Virus record (IMG/VR): IMGVR_UViG_3300043015_000828
Span: 1 to 39,312 of that record
Strand: one strand, 5' to 3'
DNA: 39,312 nucleotides
DNA from: a virus
Part shown: piece after piece, positions 8,734 through 25,899 of the stretch
Layout: each line of letters starts with the position of its first letter
How positions within the stretch are numbered: the stretch's first letter is position 1
Program-made: the position numbers and the translations under genes
The notes under the pieces: model-generated
What the model saw: the letters and a program-made list of their open reading frames with translations, nothing else
The model's database searches: none
What the model was told of the DNA's origin: nothing

Positions 8734-9309
8734 ATGGCAAAAACAATAAATTTATTCCCTAATTATGTATTTGAAGGCACATTACAAATAGATAGTACTA
8801 TTAAAAATACATTACGAAAAGACTTAATAAAAGATTTAGACTCAGGCAAGGCTCAAAAAATGAACTTTGGGTCTATTACAGATAGAGAAATACCTTTAGA
8901 AAATTCATTTCAACAACTAGCATTTCTAATGGGGAATACATTTATAAACCATGCAAAGAAACAATTCTTAGATGTTAAAACAGAAGTAGACATACTAAAC
9001 CCATATATAGTAAGTATAAAACCAGATCATAGTTATCCTATAAACATGGAATCATGTAGATGGTACAATGGGTGCTGTTGGCTACAATCTACTAATAAAG
9101 GTAGTCATTTATACTTAGAAGATTTCTCTATTAGAACTTATGCAGATAGACATAGAACACAAAAACGAAACTTTTCAGTAGCACCTAGAAACTTTAAATA
9201 TATATTTTGGCCTTCACATATCCCATGGGGATTCACTCCGAATCAAAGTATGGTAGATACGCAATTATTGTGTTTAAGTTTTCTTGTAAGTGATAGAAAG
9301 GGGCCGTAG
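8734..9309 (+). CDS. Degenerate 2OG-Fe(II) oxygenase-like fold protein
   Basis: A 191-residue protein on the plus strand. The C-terminal run FWPSHIPWGFTPNQS (158-172) followed by LLCLSFLV mirrors the end of phage 2-oxoglutarate/Fe(II) oxygenases, which read roughly FPSWLxHGVxPNxS...ISF. The usual iron ligands look absent: no HxD is seen around 105-128, and the distal His position is Trp165. That suggests a structural or non-catalytic derivative, perhaps a virion or fibre-associated protein. Start: the ATG at 8734 is preferred to an upstream TTG because of the late-like box five bases before it. The stop lies in a terminator hairpin. Family assignment is tentative. Confidence 0.6.
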   Translation: MAKTINLFPNYVFEGTLQIDSTIKNTLRKDLIKDLDSGKAQKMNFGSITDREIPLENSFQQLAFLMGNTFINHAKKQFLDVKTEVDILNPYIVSIKPDHSYPINMESCRWYNGCCWLQSTNKGSHLYLEDFSIRTYADRHRTQKRNFSVAPRNFKYIFWPSHIPWGFTPNQSMVDTQLLCLSFLVSDRKGP

Positions 9310-9315
9310 CCCCTT
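9298..9315. terminator. Bidirectional hairpin between converging genes
   Basis: AAGGGGC (9298-9304) pairs with GCCCCTT (9309-9315) around a four-base loop. The stem contains the stop codon of the plus-strand gene. It separates that gene from the minus-strand 53-residue gene ending at 9322. The T-tracts on either side are short, so termination may be partial. Confidence 0.6.
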
Positions 9316-9321
9316 AATTGA

Positions 9322-9483
9322 TTAATACCAAGGGTTATTTGCTATGTAGTCAGGTAAACTTCTCTCAGGTTCTCTGGGGAAATTATATCTTACACTAGAT
9401 AACTTATTTTCAGGCTTGCTGAATTTTTTGGACAAATCACGTTTCACTGCACGTTTGAATTGTGCTATTTGATACTTAGTCAT
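9322..9483 (-). CDS. 53-residue basic protein under a glutamine riboswitch
   Basis: The protein starts MTKYQIAQFKRAVKRD and ends DYIANNPWY. The N-terminal third is a lysine/arginine-rich helix (KRAVKRDLSKKF); the C-terminal part is proline- and aromatic-rich. AAGGAG lies upstream of the ATG at 9483. The leader carries two tandem glutamine-riboswitch-like aptamers, the arrangement known as glnA RNA or 'Downstream-peptide' RNA, in which a short ORF follows the aptamer. In cyanobacteria such small basic proteins include glutamine synthetase inactivating factors. No clear sequence match to IF7 or IF17 is seen, so that role is a hypothesis from the context. Confidence 0.75.
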   Translation of the reverse strand: MTKYQIAQFKRAVKRDLSKKFSKPENKLSSVRYNFPREPERSLPDYIANNPWY

Positions 9484-9504
9484 GTCATCTCCTTTTACAA
9501 AGAT

Positions 9505-9563
9505 GCGTTCCTTCGGTACTATTACCTACTTCCGTTCACTGCTACATTTAGAGTGAATGAACG
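9505..9563 (-). promoter_or_regulatory. Glutamine-riboswitch-like aptamer, proximal copy
   Basis: A three-way junction on the minus strand. P1 is CGTTC (9563-9559) with GAACG (9510-9506). P2 is TTCACT/AGTGAA. The conserved linker is CGGAAGTAG (9534-9526). P3 is GGTA-ATAG-TACC. It closes with CGAAGGAACGC. These conserved strings match my knowledge of the glnA/Downstream-peptide glutamine riboswitch. Just downstream, CATCT (9505-9501) can pair with AGATG (9490-9486), enclosing the ribosome-binding site. This gives a plausible translational switch next to P1. Confidence 0.82.
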
Positions 9564-9569
9564 ATTTCG

Positions 9570-9615
9570 GCGTTCCTTCGTCTTATGACTACTTCCGTCT
9601 CTTTCGAGATGAACG
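9570..9615 (-). promoter_or_regulatory. Glutamine-riboswitch-like aptamer, distal copy
   Basis: A second copy of the same fold with compensated stems. P1 is CGTTC (9615-9611) with GAACG (9575-9571). P2 is TCTC-GAAA-GAGA. The linker CGGAAGTAG (9597-9589) is identical. P3 is GTC-ATAA-GAC. The closing string CGAAGGAACGC is identical. P2 and P3 differ in sequence from the proximal copy but still pair, which is covariation within a single transcript. A further hairpin (TGTAAC...GTTACA, 9633-9616) precedes it at the expected 5' end. Confidence 0.82.
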
Positions 9616-9638
9616 ATGTAACATTGCTGTTACATATT

Positions 9639-9646
9639 TATTTATC
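9639..9646 (-). promoter_or_regulatory. Late promoter box GATAAATA before the riboswitch
   Basis: GATAAATA on the minus strand (followed by a second overlapping AATAAATA at 9642-9635) lies directly after the tail-fibre terminator. Transcription should begin near 9633 and run through both aptamers into the 53-residue gene. Confidence 0.65.
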
Positions 9647-9648
9647 AT

Positions 9649-9672
9649 AAAAAAAGGGCTCCTAAGAGCCCT
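9649..9672 (-). terminator. Intrinsic terminator after the tail-fibre gene
   Basis: On the minus strand AGGGCTC-TTAG-GAGCCCT forms a seven-pair stem followed by a run of seven T. It ends transcription of the 9692-12916 gene immediately before the next late promoter. Confidence 0.88.
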
Positions 9673-9691: not shown

Positions 9692-12600
9692 TTATACATA
9701 ATTGTAATGTACACTTGCAACCATTACACCAGAAGTTGTTGTAGCCGGTGTGCTACCATCTGCCTGCATGAATTGAACTTGTACACTAGCATTCTTAGTT
9801 AGTGTATCATCACCATCAAGTTCTACAATGTATGAACCGAGAGTTGATGCATCTGCGTCAACCGCCGCTACTATTGTATTACCTGAACCGCCATTTTCTT
9901 TAACAAGAATATGGTTAAATGAACCACCACTAAATGCTGTACTTACTTTAAATACAATCTTTTCAGCATAGTAAGTTCTACCTGCAACGTTTGGCACAGT
10001 ACCAATGTCAAAAGTAGTTGCACTACTGTCCGCAGTAAATGACGCTCTTAATAAGAGGCCGTCACCACCATTGTTTTCAACGTAGTCAATAACTGCCGCT
10101 GAAGTTGGAATAGTAGTATCATTGTCATTATTGCTAATGCCATCTGCTTCATCAACAAACTTAGTAACAGCAATGCTCTCACCTGAGTCTGTTAATGTAC
10201 CAAAACTTACTGCACCACTGATTGTAGCACTTGTACCAATCAACCCTGCCGCTTCAAAGTCAGCCGCTGTTAGTGTCAAGTCACCTGTACCTGAACCATC
10301 AGCAGTTGTTGTAGCCGCCATGAATCTATCTTCACTCTGATCCCAACCTAAGAATCCGTTATCGCCATCTGAACCTCTTTCAAGGATAAGACCGATATCG
10401 TTAGGGTTAGCACCAGTTAAGCCTGATTGTAAAACAAGTAATGTATCTTCAATAGTTGTGTTAGTTGAGTTTACACTTGTTGTTGAACCACTTACAGTTA
10501 AGTTACCACCAACTGTTACATCACCTGATGTAGCAATACTAGTAACACCTGTTAGAGCACCTGCACTCAAAGAAGCAGTACCATCAGTAATTGTTGTAGC
10601 ACTAACACTTGTTAGACCACTTACTGAATCTGCTAATGCAATAGTAAGATTACCACCAGACATGCTAGTTGTAATTTCATTGCTTGTGCCTAGGATACCT
10701 AAGTTAGCACTATCAAGATCAATTGATCCTGTAGTTGAATCACCGTCAACATTTAATGTTGCCGCACCAACTGAAGCATCAACGTATGCTTTAACTGATT
10801 GTTGTGTAGGAATCAATGTAGCACTATCTGATGCCATATTGTCCTCATCAACGAATGCAGTAACAGTGATTGAACCGTCACTTAATGAACCAAACTGTAC
10901 TGTGCCTGAAGCAGTAACATTTGTTACGCCTGTTAAAGCACCACTGCTCATAGAAGCAGTACCGTCAGTTAATGTTCCACCAGTTAATGTACCTGAACCA
11001 GTAATGTTAGTTGCACCAGTAATAGCACCACTTGTTGCTGTTAAAGTACCGTCAGTTAAACTGCCGCCTTCAACTGCACCACTAAATGTTGCATTTACAC
11101 CTGATGTAATATTACCAGAATTAATACTTAATGTACCGTCAGTTAATGTACCACCTGTTACAGTTCCTGATGTAGTTAATGCACCAGTTAAGCCAGTAAG
11201 GGCTCCACCTGTCATTGTTGCTGTACCGTCAGTAAGACTACCACCAGTAATAGCACCTGAGGCTGTAACTGCTGTTAAGCCTGTTAGTGTACTATCTAGT
11301 GTAATCGTAACATCATCCGCTGAGTTAGAAGTAGTAATGTTGTTACCACCTAATAACTTCAACTTATCAGTTGCTAATGCTACAACGTTATCCGCCGCAT
11401 CGTCTGATTGGATTGTTAGTGAAGTAGAGATACTTGCTGTACCAGCCGCTGTGATTCTACCTTGCTGATCTACTGTAAAAGTAGGAACTGCTGTAGAACT
11501 ACCATATGCTCCTGGAGTTACCGCAGTATCATCTAGGTCAATTGCACCACTTGTTACAGTAATACCAGTGTCGCCACTAATATATGCATCTATGGCACTA
11601 TTTGCTCTTGCAGTTGTATAATAAAGGTTTGACCCTTCACTTAAATTACCAGTGTTATGGTTAGCAATACTGCTAACTGTACCAGTTACATCACCAGTTA
11701 CATCACCTGTTAAGTCACCTTCAAAAGATGAAGCCTTAACATTTTCTGAACCAAAGTCCCACTCATCACCAACTGATGTGTAAAGGATTTGTTTGATTAC
11801 ACCGTTTGCATTTGCTTCAAACCCAGCATCAGTGTCTGCACCGTTACTGTTTACTCTGAAGATTGCATCTTCAGTTTGTACGGTTGTTGATTCAATTACA
11901 GTTTGCGTACCTTGTACTGTTAAGTTACCAGTAATTGTGGCATCACCTGCAATGCTAATCGCACTAGAAGTAATATCATCTGATAAGAAACTACCTGTAA
12001 CACTTAGGTTATTACCTATTGTTACGTCATCAGGTAAACCAATTTGAATTTGGTTATCACTAACTGTTGTTTCTATTTCGTTACTTGTACCTACAAAGTT
12101 AAGGGTATCTGTTCCAACTGTTACAGTATCATCACTGCCATTATCAGCACCGATTGTTAATACACTTGAAGTTGCCGCAGTAGTAACTGCTGTGATTTGC
12201 CCTTTAGCATTAACAGTAATTACTGGAATAGCACTTGAACTACCAAATGAACCTGTATTACTATTAACAGTAGGTAATGTGGTTGTGATAGATGCAGTAT
12301 CACCAGCGTCTTGGAAAGTTGCACTTCCAGTAATGTCGCCAGTTAATGCTACAGTAACCGCTGATGAAAGACCATCTGCGTCATCTGCCACACCTGTTAA
12401 ATTTCCTGTAAAGCCGGAATTTGCTGTTATTGTTGTTCCTACAATAGTACTTGCACTATTGGCACCAATAGCAGTTCCATCAATGGCGCCGCCATCAATA
12501 TCTATACTGTTTGAAGCCTGAGTTGCAATGTTACCTAATCCTAACGCAGTTCTGGCACCTGAGGCTGAAGTTGCCCCTGTACCACCCTGTTCTACTGGAA

Positions 12601-12916
12601 GTTGACTAGTACTATCAATTAAAGTTGAATCACTTAATGAAATATTACCAGCACTTGCTGTACCGCTAGAAAATGTAACTATACCTGTAGAGGAACTAAA
12701 GTCTTGGCCAGTACCACCGTATTGTGCGCCTATAGACGTTGCTGTCCAACTACCTGATGTTACACTACCAAAACGTATGTCTTCTAGTGTTGAGCCATCT
12801 GATTGAGTTAGATCAAATCGGTTATTACTAGCATCGTACTTTAAACGACCGCCACTTTTACCCATTTGAACGTCTGACGATATACCTTTGATACCAAAGT
12901 TTTTAATATCCGCCAT
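9692..12916 (-). CDS. Long repetitive tail-fibre-like structural protein
   Basis: A 1074-residue Gly/Ser/Thr/Ala/Asp-rich protein. The N-terminus (MADIKNFGIKGISSDVQMGKSGG) and early GGTGATSASGARTALGLGNIA are typical of phage fibre modules. The centre holds tandem 28-residue units built on GGTLTDGT...SGALTGVT. Two GxxGSSxxxPxxTVDxxGxIT modules are shared with the 955-residue fibre. The C-terminal domain is a globular beta region (ADGSTPATTTSGVMVASVHYNYV). It likely forms a trimeric beta fibre for host attachment. AAGGAG lies before the ATG, a late box stands at 12968-12975, and an intrinsic terminator follows. Confidence 0.82.
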   Translation of the reverse strand: MADIKNFGIKGISSDVQMGKSGGRLKYDASNNRFDLTQSDGSTLEDIRFGSVTSGSWTATSIGAQYGGTGQDFSSSTGIVTFSSGTASAGNISLSDSTLIDSTSQLPVEQGGTGATSASGARTALGLGNIATQASNSIDIDGGAIDGTAIGANSASTIVGTTITANSGFTGNLTGVADDADGLSSAVTVALTGDITGSATFQDAGDTASITTTLPTVNSNTGSFGSSSAIPVITVNAKGQITAVTTAATSSVLTIGADNGSDDTVTVGTDTLNFVGTSNEIETTVSDNQIQIGLPDDVTIGNNLSVTGSFLSDDITSSAISIAGDATITGNLTVQGTQTVIESTTVQTEDAIFRVNSNGADTDAGFEANANGVIKQILYTSVGDEWDFGSENVKASSFEGDLTGDVTGDVTGTVSSIANHNTGNLSEGSNLYYTTARANSAIDAYISGDTGITVTSGAIDLDDTAVTPGAYGSSTAVPTFTVDQQGRITAAGTASISTSLTIQSDDAADNVVALATDKLKLLGGNNITTSNSADDVTITLDSTLTGLTAVTASGAITGGSLTDGTATMTGGALTGLTGALTTSGTVTGGTLTDGTLSINSGNITSGVNATFSGAVEGGSLTDGTLTATSGAITGATNITGSGTLTGGTLTDGTASMSSGALTGVTNVTASGTVQFGSLSDGSITVTAFVDEDNMASDSATLIPTQQSVKAYVDASVGAATLNVDGDSTTGSIDLDSANLGILGTSNEITTSMSGGNLTIALADSVSGLTSVSATTITDGTASLSAGALTGVTSIATSGDVTVGGNLTVSGSTTSVNSTNTTIEDTLLVLQSGLTGANPNDIGLILERGSDGDNGFLGWDQSEDRFMAATTTADGSGTGDLTLTAADFEAAGLIGTSATISGAVSFGTLTDSGESIAVTKFVDEADGISNNDNDTTIPTSAAVIDYVENNGGDGLLLRASFTADSSATTFDIGTVPNVAGRTYYAEKIVFKVSTAFSGGSFNHILVKENGGSGNTIVAAVDADASTLGSYIVELDGDDTLTKNASVQVQFMQADGSTPATTTSGVMVASVHYNYV
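10870..11290 (-). repeat. Tandem 28-residue repeats in the tail-fibre gene
   Basis: About five copies of an approximately 84-base unit encode GG(S/T)LTDGT....SGA(L/I)TGxTxxTxSG. The recurring DNA core GTACCGTCAGT (plus strand) appears at about 84-91 base spacing. Such units probably stack as turns of a beta-helical shaft and can change number by recombination. Confidence 0.75.
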
Positions 12917-22548: not shown

Positions 22549-25500
22549 TTAGAAAACGTATTTAAGTCCAAGTTGTAAGCGGTAAGTACTTCTATAGTAA
22601 TTGGTAACTTGGTTATCAATTCTATCTATGTTCATACCATAAGCAGGTCTGTATTCATAAGACCAACTACCATCACCATTGTTGATAGGAGTTGCTTCTG
22701 CAATACTTCTTGCTGTTCCGTTTGCTTTGGTTTGTTTACCCCAATCGCTATCAAGCAAGTTGAGTAAGTTTTCAACGTCAAGTGTAATTATAAATTTATC
22801 CTTGTCTGTTAAACCTAGTCCAGGAAGTTCCTGTGTAAATTTAAAGTCAAGTCTGTAATTCCAATCTGTTTCAAACTCATTAATTGGTGCAAAACCACCT
22901 GCATACTTACCTAACCCTGAGGCGGCAATGTAGGCATTAAAGTCGTCTGCAAACCAACTTGGTATAATTACGTCAGTTCCAGATCCGTCTGGGACATAGA
23001 ATGCCGCAGTTTCGTCTCTTGTTGACTCTCTGTCAAGACCCCATAAAGCACCATCTTTGTATTGTCCTAATGTGTATGAGAAAGGCTCACCACTTACAGC
23101 ACTAACAATAAATGTAAATCTACTTGGAGAATTTTCAAACCAGTTAGCAGTATAGTTACCTACAAAACTAAATGTGTGTTCTCTTTCGTAAACTGATCTA
23201 TGCATTACGTCTTCATTAAAGTCATCATACTTAGTAGTATACTTAAAGTTAGAAATGTTTCTACTTGAAGTTAAGTTACCAACAGTATCAACATCTTGCC
23301 ATGTGTAGTTTGCATAAAAGTCAAACCCATTTTCAAATGCTTTACTTACACTAACTGCAAACAATTCGCTTTCGCCTTTGCCTGTGTTAGTTAGTAACAT
23401 GTCATAACCTCTATAATCATAGAAACGTTCCATTGCTTTACTACATAAACTATAGTCTGCGTATATATCTCTGCCATCTGGTCCAACACCAATTGGTAAG
23501 TTGGTAACAGGTATATCACAGTTGGCTACGCCGGCAAATGCTGGATTACCAAGTCTAAGTTGTTTGTAGTGTAAGTCTTTGTCAGTTCTAGTCATTAAGA
23601 AGTCTGCACTCATGTAGTATCCATCGCCCATTACCCAATCAGCACCTACAGAAAGTTTTAACTCTCTTGGTAACTCAAAGTTTGGATCTAGGATATCTGC
23701 AAATGCAGGTATAAAACCTTCCTGACCAGGTTGATAAATGTAACTGTCAAATGTTGTTGTATCAAAACCATCGAACCCTGCGGCCGCTGATAATGGTACG
23801 TTAGCATTTTGGATACCAATACCGTCATTACTGAAAGTACCGCCCATCCATACATTAGGTCTACCACCTGTAAAGTATCCAGCACCACCTCTGAACGTTA
23901 GTTCTTGGAAAGCACCGAAGTCGTCTGCGTCATAAACAAAACTTACTCTAGGTAAAAATACATCTTTACCGTCTAGGCTGACATCATTTCTGATACCATA
24001 ATAGCCGTTAAGTGTATCATTATACTTAGGTGCATCGTCCATTGAGATTTTCTCATAACGTGCGCCGTAGTTAAGTGTAAGTCTATCACTGTAATCCCAA
24101 GTATCTTGAACATAGTAACTAGTTGTTTCTATTTCGAAGAAAGCGGCTCCATCTGCTGGGTTACCACTTGGGGAGTTTCTATAGTCAATGCTATAAGGAT
24201 TCTTGTTCTCAAAGTCCTCAATACTTGCGTATTCAAGAACACCGTCTGAGTATGCAACGAACCCGTTTGCTACATCAACACCATTTTTAGAAATACCTGC
24301 AACCAATTCATGTGAACCAATTAAGTAAGATAGTTCAAACTCTAATTCACTTGATTGTGTTTCTAAAAAGTTGTAATGTCTAAATGGATCAGGTCCTACT
24401 AGGACTTGTGGTCCTCTATCGCCTTCTCCTAACTCTACGATTGCTCTCATAAAGTCATCGCCACCAACACTTGCTTGTGAAGTTTCAACAAGTCTATCAC
24501 CATATCTAAATGTAGTAGATAGTCTGTCATTCCAATCACTAAACACTTGGAAACTGTCTGCTGTCAAGTCTGTAGTTTTAATATAGTTACCACTTGTGAG
24601 TGCTAATACTGTATTTGAACCACCGTACTCTCTAACGTCATTGTTTTCTGATGTCTGGTTTGTGTATGTTGCTCTGTGTGAGTCATTAATGTTCCAGTCT
24701 AGTTTAATTAGCATATCTTCATCAAGTAATGAATTAACACCACCTGAGGCCGAACCTGCGTCATACCCATACACATCATTAGCAATGCCAATAATTCTGT
24801 CTGCGTCTGCTACAGTTACGCCATCAACTTCTCTAAGGGCACCACTACCTGATGCTCCCCAGATGCCTGGTTCACTTTTCTCAAATTTGTCATAGTTTAC
24901 AAAAAAGAATAACTTATCCTCAAGGATAGGTCCGCCTAATGTAAACCCTTTTGTGTCTTCCTCAAACTCACCAACAGTAAGTTCTTGGCCGTCAATCTCA
25001 TCTCCAACCCAACTATCGCTAGTTGTAAAGCCGTAAACAGATCCTGACAGTTCGTTGGTACCTGACTTAGTAACAACGTTAATAACACCTGCTGTTGACC
25101 CTGAGTCTCTGACATCATAATCTACAACACTAACAGATACCTGCTCTACTGAGTCAAGTGATAGAGGAGATTTAACTCCAGGATAACCACCATACTCTAG
25201 ACCAAAGTCATCTGATTGCCCAATACCGTCAACTTGAAATTGACTGTATCTAGCATTGGTACCTGCAATCGAAATACTTTCAGTATCATCGCCATTAAAA
25301 GAAATACTATAAACATTCACAAAAGGTTGTGTTGCTACTGCATCTTTAATGTCTCTGTTGACACTGGCAATATCCATAATCTGATCGCCGGTTAATGTGC
25401 TTCTAGGTCCTGTAATAAGACCTGAAGTATTTGTTGCCTGTCCAACAACAACTAGTTCTTCAACTGAATCTGTACTTCTAAGAGTAAGTTTAACTCTGGA

Positions 25501-25803
25501 AGTTTCAGACAGTTCAAGATAAATGTTGTCTAACTCAGCATATCCATCTGCACCAAAAACAAGGACCCTGTAAGGACCACCAACACGTAGATTCCTAGCA
25601 AGGAATACTCCGTCTTCGTTTGTTATTTGTGTTGACGTTGAACCTGACGGTTCATGGATAATGGAGACGTCTGCTCCTGATACGACCGCACCAGTAGAGT
25701 TCAGAATTGAACCTCTGATTGCGGAAGTAGTTTCTTGGGCAAATACCGGTACACTTATTAAAAGTGTTGCCGCTAACCCAAGGAATAGTTTGCGAATATT
25801 CAT
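22549..25803 (-). CDS. Complete Oar-like TonB-dependent outer-membrane receptor
   Basis: A 1084-residue protein with a signal peptide (1-22, cut after VFA), a carboxypeptidase-regulatory-like beta-sandwich (about 27-110), VEELVVVG at 114-121, a plug domain (about 130-255, with INVVTKSGTNELSG), and a long beta-barrel ending in an aromatic residue (LQLGLKYVF). This is the layout of bacterial Oar-type transporters, not of any phage structural protein. The start at 25803 has AGGAG eight bases upstream; longer frames lack it. A perfect TATAAATA late box, a leader with two hairpins, and a terminator surround it. It would sit in the host outer membrane; substrate unknown. It is very unusual in a phage. 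Confidence 0.93.
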   Translation of the reverse strand: MNIRKLFLGLAATLLISVPVFAQETTSAIRGSILNSTGAVVSGADVSIIHEPSGSTSTQITNEDGVFLARNLRVGGPYRVLVFGADGYAELDNIYLELSETSRVKLTLRSTDSVEELVVVGQATNTSGLITGPRSTLTGDQIMDIASVNRDIKDAVATQPFVNVYSISFNGDDTESISIAGTNARYSQFQVDGIGQSDDFGLEYGGYPGVKSPLSLDSVEQVSVSVVDYDVRDSGSTAGVINVVTKSGTNELSGSVYGFTTSDSWVGDEIDGQELTVGEFEEDTKGFTLGGPILEDKLFFFVNYDKFEKSEPGIWGASGSGALREVDGVTVADADRIIGIANDVYGYDAGSASGGVNSLLDEDMLIKLDWNINDSHRATYTNQTSENNDVREYGGSNTVLALTSGNYIKTTDLTADSFQVFSDWNDRLSTTFRYGDRLVETSQASVGGDDFMRAIVELGEGDRGPQVLVGPDPFRHYNFLETQSSELEFELSYLIGSHELVAGISKNGVDVANGFVAYSDGVLEYASIEDFENKNPYSIDYRNSPSGNPADGAAFFEIETTSYYVQDTWDYSDRLTLNYGARYEKISMDDAPKYNDTLNGYYGIRNDVSLDGKDVFLPRVSFVYDADDFGAFQELTFRGGAGYFTGGRPNVWMGGTFSNDGIGIQNANVPLSAAAGFDGFDTTTFDSYIYQPGQEGFIPAFADILDPNFELPRELKLSVGADWVMGDGYYMSADFLMTRTDKDLHYKQLRLGNPAFAGVANCDIPVTNLPIGVGPDGRDIYADYSLCSKAMERFYDYRGYDMLLTNTGKGESELFAVSVSKAFENGFDFYANYTWQDVDTVGNLTSSRNISNFKYTTKYDDFNEDVMHRSVYEREHTFSFVGNYTANWFENSPSRFTFIVSAVSGEPFSYTLGQYKDGALWGLDRESTRDETAAFYVPDGSGTDVIIPSWFADDFNAYIAASGLGKYAGGFAPINEFETDWNYRLDFKFTQELPGLGLTDKDKFIITLDVENLLNLLDSDWGKQTKANGTARSIAEATPINNGDGSWSYEYRPAYGMNIDRIDNQVTNYYRSTYRLQLGLKYVF

Positions 25804-25834
25804 AACCACTCCTGTTTCGCTTTGTGTGTTTAAC

Positions 25835-25859
25835 AAAAAATAGGAGGAATTCTCCTATT
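25835..25859 (-). terminator. Terminator-like hairpin in the leader of the receptor gene
   Basis: AATAGGAG (25859-25852) and CTCCTATT (25846-25839) form an eight-pair stem around a five-base loop, followed by a T-run, between the late promoter and the ribosome-binding site. Position and form suggest an attenuator that limits read-through into the receptor gene. Confidence 0.65.
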
Positions 25860-25891: not shown

Positions 25892-25899
25892 TATTTATA
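25892..25899 (-). promoter_or_regulatory. Perfect T4 late promoter TATAAATA for the receptor gene
   Basis: TATAAATA on the minus strand. It is the only exact match to the T4 late consensus that I found upstream of a gene here; other late boxes read GATAAATA or variants. It points at the TonB-receptor gene. Confidence 0.75.

Follow-up and report, generated by a model that had tools for sequence, protein, structure and literature searches.

Which signal is read by the leader of a 53-codon open reading frame (ORF) in the genome of a T4-like phage, and how is this signal passed on to the ribosome? We analysed a window of 39,312 bases, which is the whole stretch of viral DNA considered here. An earlier note on this DNA had proposed that two copies of one glutamine-riboswitch-like fold precede the ORF in a late leader, and that a stem beside P1 can mask the ribosome-binding site. 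In the direction of transcription, the unit and its flanks comprise the following features.

9655-9672, minus strand: intrinsic terminator AGGGCTC-TTAG-GAGCCCT with T-run (terminator scan), at which the tail-fibre-like gene upstream (9692-12916) ends, parted from the riboswitch unit
9639-9646, minus strand: T4-type late promoter GATAAATA (motif)
9617-9634, minus strand: 5' hairpin TGTAAC-AGCAAT-GTTACA at the leader start (predicted fold; inferred transcription start)
9567-9617, minus strand: aptamer 1, type I glutamine riboswitch (RF01739) with short P2, 60.8 bits
9564-9570, minus strand: linker CCGAAAT (sequence); its base 1 is the C60 equivalent of aptamer 1, and the RF01739 match to aptamer 2 starts within it
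9502-9565, minus strand: aptamer 2, type I glutamine riboswitch (RF01739) with long P2, 60.3 bits
9486-9505, minus strand: hairpin CAUCUUU-GUAAAA-GGAGAUG hiding the Shine-Dalgarno (SD) sequence (covariation, energies); its base 1 (9505) corresponds to C60 in aptamer 2
9489-9494, minus strand: SD sequence AAGGAG (sequence)
9322-9483, minus strand: 53-codon ORF P0001, basic (pI 10.1), with a predicted N-terminal helix (3-21) and a conserved LPxYIxxNPWY at the C-terminus; its small-protein family occurs behind glutamine aptamers (sequence, family comparison, model)
9298-9315, minus strand: inverted repeat AAGGGGC-TACG-GCCCCTT, rich in G+C, in the gap where the 53-codon ORF and the 2OG-Fe(II) oxygenase-like gene converge (sequence)

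Two type I glutamine aptamers in one leader

When the whole window was scanned with 4227 Rfam families (cmscan), two matches exceeded the curated scores and both were to RF01739, the glnA or type I glutamine riboswitch family: 9617-9567 (minus strand, 60.8 bits, E 3.5e-11) and 9565-9502 (minus strand, 60.3 bits, E 5e-11), the gathering score being 35 bits. They cover the intervals 9570-9615 and 9505-9563, for which the earlier note had predicted covariance-model hits, and bear out its claim that one fold occurs twice. The note had given the identity of this fold as glnA/Downstream-peptide. The glnA part of this assignment stands, whereas the Downstream-peptide part does not: RF01704 (Downstream-peptide or type II) resembles the window leader in having a related ligand site and in preceding very short ORFs (17-100 amino acids), but the best score for this family under permissive settings was 10.8 bits (E 4.1), and because this is below the cut-off of 33 the leader is not a member.

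Both copies have a three-helix fold with the conserved CGGAAGUA and GAAGG...ACG. The elements CGGAAGTAG and CGAAGGAACGC are common to both and unchanged, as is the core string CGGAAGUAG, and the P2 and P3 helices pair in both copies despite their different sequences (UCUC/GAGA versus UUCAC/GUGAA in P2, GUC/GAC versus GGU/ACC in P3), just as the earlier note had described. G22 and G23 in J2/3, and C60 directly after P1, are likewise kept in both copies; this numbering was checked against the construct sequence in PMC5393176, in which C60 is printed directly 3' of the P1 3' strand. G23 joins P1 upon ligand binding, with C60 as its partner, and the pair forms only in the bound state (PMC11477058).

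The aptamers are arranged head to tail with a short linker between them, forming two complete aptamers in one leader in front of one gene, and the terminator scan found no terminator-like site between them on the coding strand. Judging by these sequence features, the window leader would bind glutamine as a type I riboswitch with two aptamers in tandem.

A single late gene

A TATAAATA-type late promoter lies directly upstream of the leader in the form of GATAAATA (9646-9639), in support of the earlier description of the leader as late. Elsewhere in the window, the GATAAATA motif stands ahead of further genes for structural proteins (12968, 17918, 18388 and 25892). Similarly, 63 of the 80 distinct viral tandem leaders among the matches listed have a late promoter motif at most 110 nt upstream, compared with 4% of shuffled sequences. 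Given the terminator before the leader, the late promoter, and the ORF converging on the oxygenase-like gene, the riboswitch unit is a single late gene. The inverted repeat at 9298-9315 was absent from the terminator-scan results; it is possibly the end of both convergent transcripts.

A family of small basic proteins behind glutamine aptamers

The 53-codon ORF expected after the leader is present at 9322-9483 on the minus strand, with the SD sequence AAGGAG 5 nt upstream of its ATG. Using a pattern for two successive aptamer cores, we found tandem glnA aptamers in at least 119 IMG/VR viral loci and, among the matches listed, a small ORF follows the second aptamer in every readable tandem locus. 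The 66 distinct products among these matches are 32-65 amino acids long, all with a pI above 9 (median 10.2), and contain 22% Lys+Arg; by comparison, 49% of 57 other small SD-led ORFs from the same contigs have a pI above 9, with 14% Lys+Arg, kinship being ignored in this control. Where testable among the matches listed, the median dN/dS is 0.12 over 1015 non-independent ORF pairs, which argues that the small ORFs are real genes.

The P0001 family has two invariant elements, an initial M-T and a terminal P-x-Y-x3-N-P-x-Y, and a YRGVRY stretch like the repeats of DUF4278 is present in some members. A protein-only alignment search of viral contigs, carried out with no RNA reference, returned 32 loci, all of which (32/32) lie behind glnA aptamer sequence: 26 behind tandem aptamers, five behind one recognisable copy and one behind a copy cut by the contig end. 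The AlphaFold model of P0001 contains one confident helix (residues 3-21), the remainder being weak (pTM 0.37). Searches of Pfam, NCBIfam, PHROGs and PDB sequences with P0001 gave no useful match, Pfam PF14105 (DUF4278) did not match it, and no close relative was present among 50,697 phage records.

A covarying hairpin that hides the Shine-Dalgarno sequence

The stem CATCT/AGATG, which the earlier note had seen beside P1, is present and pairs 9505-9501 with 9490-9486; it extends to seven pairs (9505-9499/9492-9486) that take in the GGAG of the ribosome-binding site. Across 54 distinct leaders among the matches listed, the bases from C60 of the second aptamer onward pair with the SD region, and the stem occurs in compensatory forms (CAUCU/AGAUG, CAAUCU/AGAUUG, CACC/GGUG, CACCC/GGGUG, CACUC/GAGUG, CAUUUUC/GAGAAUG and others). 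Counted over 16 distinct strand pairs, 79 of the 96 possible base pairs are present, compared with 68.7 +/- 2.1 for swapped strands, a figure that ignores kinship. None of 20,000 strand shuffles reached the observed pairing; kinship is ignored here as well, but the changes on both sides of the helix are direct. In this test the 3' strand was placed by position only, and the mis-anchored strand pair CACCTA/GTGTTG counts against the helix. In total, covariation in phages as well as in SAR86 genomes supports the proposed masking of the ribosome-binding site by this stem.

Mutual exclusion of the SD helix and the ligand-bound aptamer would depend on one shared base, C60, apart from which the hairpin and P1 have no overlap and could coexist. 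In the energy model, loss of the C60 pair costs the hairpin a median of 2.4 kcal/mol over 52 leaders and 2.6 kcal/mol in the window, and blocking this pair changes the mean unpaired level of the SD from 0.28 to 0.30 over 52 leaders and from roughly 0.04 to 0.15 in the window. Because blocking C60 raises the modelled SD accessibility only slightly, loss of this pair is perhaps insufficient alone, and tertiary strain or coaxial stacking may have to add to it.

A likely translational ON switch

Combining these data, we consider it likely that the unit is a late monocistronic gene of a T4-like phage, probably with a SAR86-type marine gammaproteobacterial host, in which the tandem type I glutamine riboswitch functions as a translational ON switch. 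In this model, (i) in the absence of glutamine the bases right after P1 of aptamer 2 would pair with the SD region and hide it, (ii) in the presence of glutamine G23 would enter P1 and pair with the C directly after P1, and (iii) by taking the first base of the hairpin (C60), G23 would leave an SD hairpin that is shorter and weaker, allowing the ribosome to start. Since G23 claims base 1 of the stem as its partner in the ligand-bound state, glutamine binding should weaken the SD stem. We infer the ON direction, and translational activation is the simplest reading: C60 is shared between the hairpin and the pair with G23, no terminator was found on the coding strand from aptamer to ORF, and the glutamine riboswitches of both known types switch expression on (PMC6316151).

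The adjacency of the two elements can also be read the other way round: glutamine would stabilise P1 of aptamer 2, stacked on the SD hairpin, and keep the hairpin closed, so that the mini-protein would be made at low glutamine. P1 directly adjoins the hairpin, coexistence is possible apart from C60, and the SD stays hidden in constrained folds in which the aptamers are formed; however, C60 is unable to pair with G23 and with the hairpin simultaneously, and the activation by ligand of both characterised glutamine riboswitch types (PMC6316151) also makes an OFF switch unlikely. Control by termination or antitermination of transcription is a common mode among riboswitches, but it is hardly credible in a leader whose coding strand, from aptamer 2 to the ORF, gave no terminator-like site in the terminator scan, and thus no stem with a T-run, and in which the hairpin that is actually there covers the SD and covaries. 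Alternatively, the RNA could be the active product, with the tandem aptamers titrating glutamine or serving as a regulatory RNA and the ORF being incidental. While the ORF is very short and the leader strongly conserved, the protein is under purifying selection (median dN/dS 0.12), its M-T and L-P-x-Y...N-P-x-Y positions are conserved over 23 sequences, and a glutamine sponge is implausible for a ligand at millimolar concentration; we regard this possibility as very improbable.

Under translational activation by glutamine, the second aptamer upstream would probably make the response steeper, because the two P1 helices can cross-pair and must fold together. Cross-pairing across the short linker is possible since both P1 helices are identical in sequence, and when the minimum-energy fold is predicted for the free leader of the window, it includes a cross hairpin between the P1 3' strand of aptamer 1 and the P1 5' strand of aptamer 2, with a probability of about 0.44. 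Such a hairpin would couple the folding of both aptamers and may make them cooperative. This agrees with Weinberg et al. 2010 (PMC2864571), who linked tandem glnA RNAs to more digital regulation. Given that single-copy family members exist (5/32), the tandem arrangement is a refinement and non-essential.

Two further pairings were considered. Pairing of UAGUCAU in aptamer 1 with AUGACUA in the start region is part of the minimum-energy fold of the window and scores slightly above swapped pairs (5.26 versus 4.85), but the bases are invariant and this candidate was rejected. In many tandem loci the linker after aptamer 1 pairs with P3 of aptamer 2 (CAUUAUC/GGUAAUG, CAUUGUU/GGCAAUG), with a mean helix of 5.32 versus 4.97 for swapped strands, a small effect for which kinship was ignored; this coupling is absent from the window linker CCGAAAT.

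Comparison with known glutamine riboswitches

Glutamine riboswitches of phages have been described before (PMC9004378, PMC9964418), and so have tandem glnA RNAs (PMC2864571). Both copies in the window match RF01739 end to end at about 60 bits with CGGAAGUA, GAAGGAACG and C60 kept, and they share with this family the leader position ahead of a nitrogen-status type gene. The window differs in being a tandem in a lytic T4-like phage, with a late promoter and a small-protein family that has no database name, whereas cyanobacterial members precede gifB/DUF4278 genes. Among marine T4-like phages, glnA-type RNAs have been described in methylophage Melnitz and pelagiphage Mosig (PMC9004378) and in cyanophage S-CREM1, the latter as one match of 44 bits with no mechanism given (PMC9964418). 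The Melnitz riboswitch was tied to ssrA (tmRNA) by its authors, with tandem copies unmentioned (PMC9004378); in contrast to Melnitz and S-CREM1, the window combines a tandem with a platform that covaries and hides the SD, and its target is a small basic protein. The tandem arrangement itself is shared with the RNAs of Weinberg et al. 2010, which in the passages of that paper concerned (PMC2864571) come from cyanobacteria and marine metagenomes and stand mainly before nitrogen genes, with no phage context or platform described there. Our literature search found no earlier description of a tandem glnA copy in a phage, of a covarying SD hairpin starting at C60 or of the P0001 small-protein family.

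A known sensor class occurs here as a recurring cassette on at least 119 viral contigs, the readable ones all preceding a very small, strongly basic ORF, which suggests that marine phages may read cellular glutamine to time one small effector. In addition, an expression platform backed by evolution is now available for a tandem glutamine riboswitch. As a separate observation, one of the viral loci carries a match to freshwater-2 RNA (RF02980; L001 3748-3835, 64.7 bits) shortly downstream of its tandem glutamine riboswitch unit.

Virus, host and cellular relatives

The genes of the window include those for a T4-type DNA polymerase, clamp loader, PhoH, a 2OG-Fe(II) oxygenase-like protein, an AAA protease, tail fibres and an Rz-like spanin. 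Among 50,697 phage records, the nearest polymerases are at most 47% identical and mostly from jumbo T4-like phages, and there is no DNA-level match to the window.

A genome scan identified tandem glnA aptamers, among the matches listed, in SAR11-type, SAR116, SAR86, SAR92 and betaproteobacterial genomes; the alphaproteobacterial ones among these matches precede ammonium transporters and glutamine synthetase-like genes, functions being read from the protein starts. Cellular relatives of P0001 were found in the SAR86 order only (6/203 genomes, versus 1/369 genomes drawn from its whole class, that one being the query genome itself). In one SAR86 family of 35 genomes, the protein and above-cut-off RF01739 matches occur in the same five genomes and in no others, the matches lying directly upstream of the protein gene. 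One SAR86 copy (L174) is near ilvBNC on a 74 kb contig and is therefore chromosomal, and the SAR86 leader and platform are nearly identical to the phage versions. These observations point to a SAR86-like host and suggest that the cassette has been exchanged between phage and host. In the literature we found neither a report of the P0001 family in SAR86 nor a link between SAR86 and glutamine riboswitches; the effector family and its likely host group, SAR86, can now be named.

The window also encodes a 1095-amino-acid TonB-dependent-receptor-like protein (22549-25836, minus strand; OMP_b-brl_4 E 8e-32, CarboxypepD_reg, TonB_dep_Rec), preceded by a TATAAATA late promoter at 25892-25899. It has a relative in one phage record only (26% identity) and relatives in 26 of 35 genomes of a SAR86 family, mostly 33-38% identical.

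Several cellular tandem leaders have other arrangements or targets. In L141, L144, L166, L132 and many SAR11-type loci, aptamer 2 can be enclosed by pairing of the linker CAUGC-AA-AGUUAU with a downstream AUAGCU-AA-GCAUG; these leaders precede 428-amino-acid ammonium-transporter-like proteins, and sometimes two tandem leaders lie 2 kb apart. In SAR86, tandem glnA aptamers are found before a protein of 756-779 amino acids that is TonB-dependent-receptor-like by its N-terminus (L139, L227, L235, L247), and two leaders (L142, L150) apparently contain, further downstream, a third element of the CGTTCA type. The same tandem leader and SD hairpin also precede other small proteins, with FFPYYL as their last residues, in SAR86 and gammaproteobacterial loci (L168, L183, L211, L241, L167, L136, L197) on chromosomal contigs (482 kb for L168).

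A possible link to glutamine synthetase

What could a glutamine-gated mini-protein do? IF17 is a basic inhibitor of cyanobacterial glutamine synthetase, the synthesis of which is turned on by a glutamine riboswitch. The window resembles this gifB/IF17 system with its DUF4278 proteins in that a small basic protein would be activated by glutamine. It differs from it in that the window protein has no DUF4278 or IF7 match and in that phage and host are non-cyanobacterial. We tentatively consider that P0001 is an inhibitor like the glutamine synthetase-inactivating factors: as glutamine builds up late, the small basic protein would bind host glutamine synthetase and slow it, saving ATP and glutamate, which is compatible with an ON switch. 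The phage L016 shares synteny with the window over the fibre gene, tandem aptamers, oxygenase and HAD-like gene; at the position that P0001 takes in the window, flanked by the fibre and 2OG-Fe(II) genes, it encodes a DUF4278 protein (Pfam E 3e-9), and DUF4278 proteins occur in other phages with tandem leaders as well (E 6.9e-8). DUF4278 covers the N-terminal part of IF17, and the YRGVRY stretch of some P0001-family members is similar to its repeats. Moreover, all 66 distinct products have a pI above 9 versus 49% of control small ORFs, and IF7 and IF17 act via positive charges and arginines. However, P0001 matches neither Pfam or NCBIfam families nor a solved structure, inhibition by IF17 resides in the IF7-like half at its C-terminus and not in DUF4278, and the controlled proteins belong to several dissimilar families. 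The sequence comparisons suggest, more generally, that the phage proteins may act on nitrogen assimilation, possibly on glutamine synthetase.

Taken one step further, and just as speculatively, marine T4-like phages might use a glutamine-gated mini-protein of the inactivating-factor type as an auxiliary metabolic regulator, in which case a cassette of tandem riboswitch, SD hairpin and small basic protein would move between phages and SAR86 chromosomes, with the protein part swapped between MTKYQ...NPFYP and DUF4278 types at one phage locus. We found no earlier description of such a swap in the literature. The recurring cassette makes it testable whether phages have taken over the cyanobacterial logic for stopping glutamine synthetase.

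Two observations were made alongside. A ferredoxin-like protein with 4Fe-4S cysteine motifs is encoded beside the riboswitch cassette of L016 (2526-2855, minus strand) and is absent from the window. In SAR86, SAR92 and Cellvibrionales genomes (L163, L219, L239, L149, L184, L194, L214), DUF4278-like proteins with YRG repeats are found behind tandem glnA aptamers; the platform in these loci is different and longer, and the Pfam scores of the proteins scanned are close to the cut-off or exceed it.
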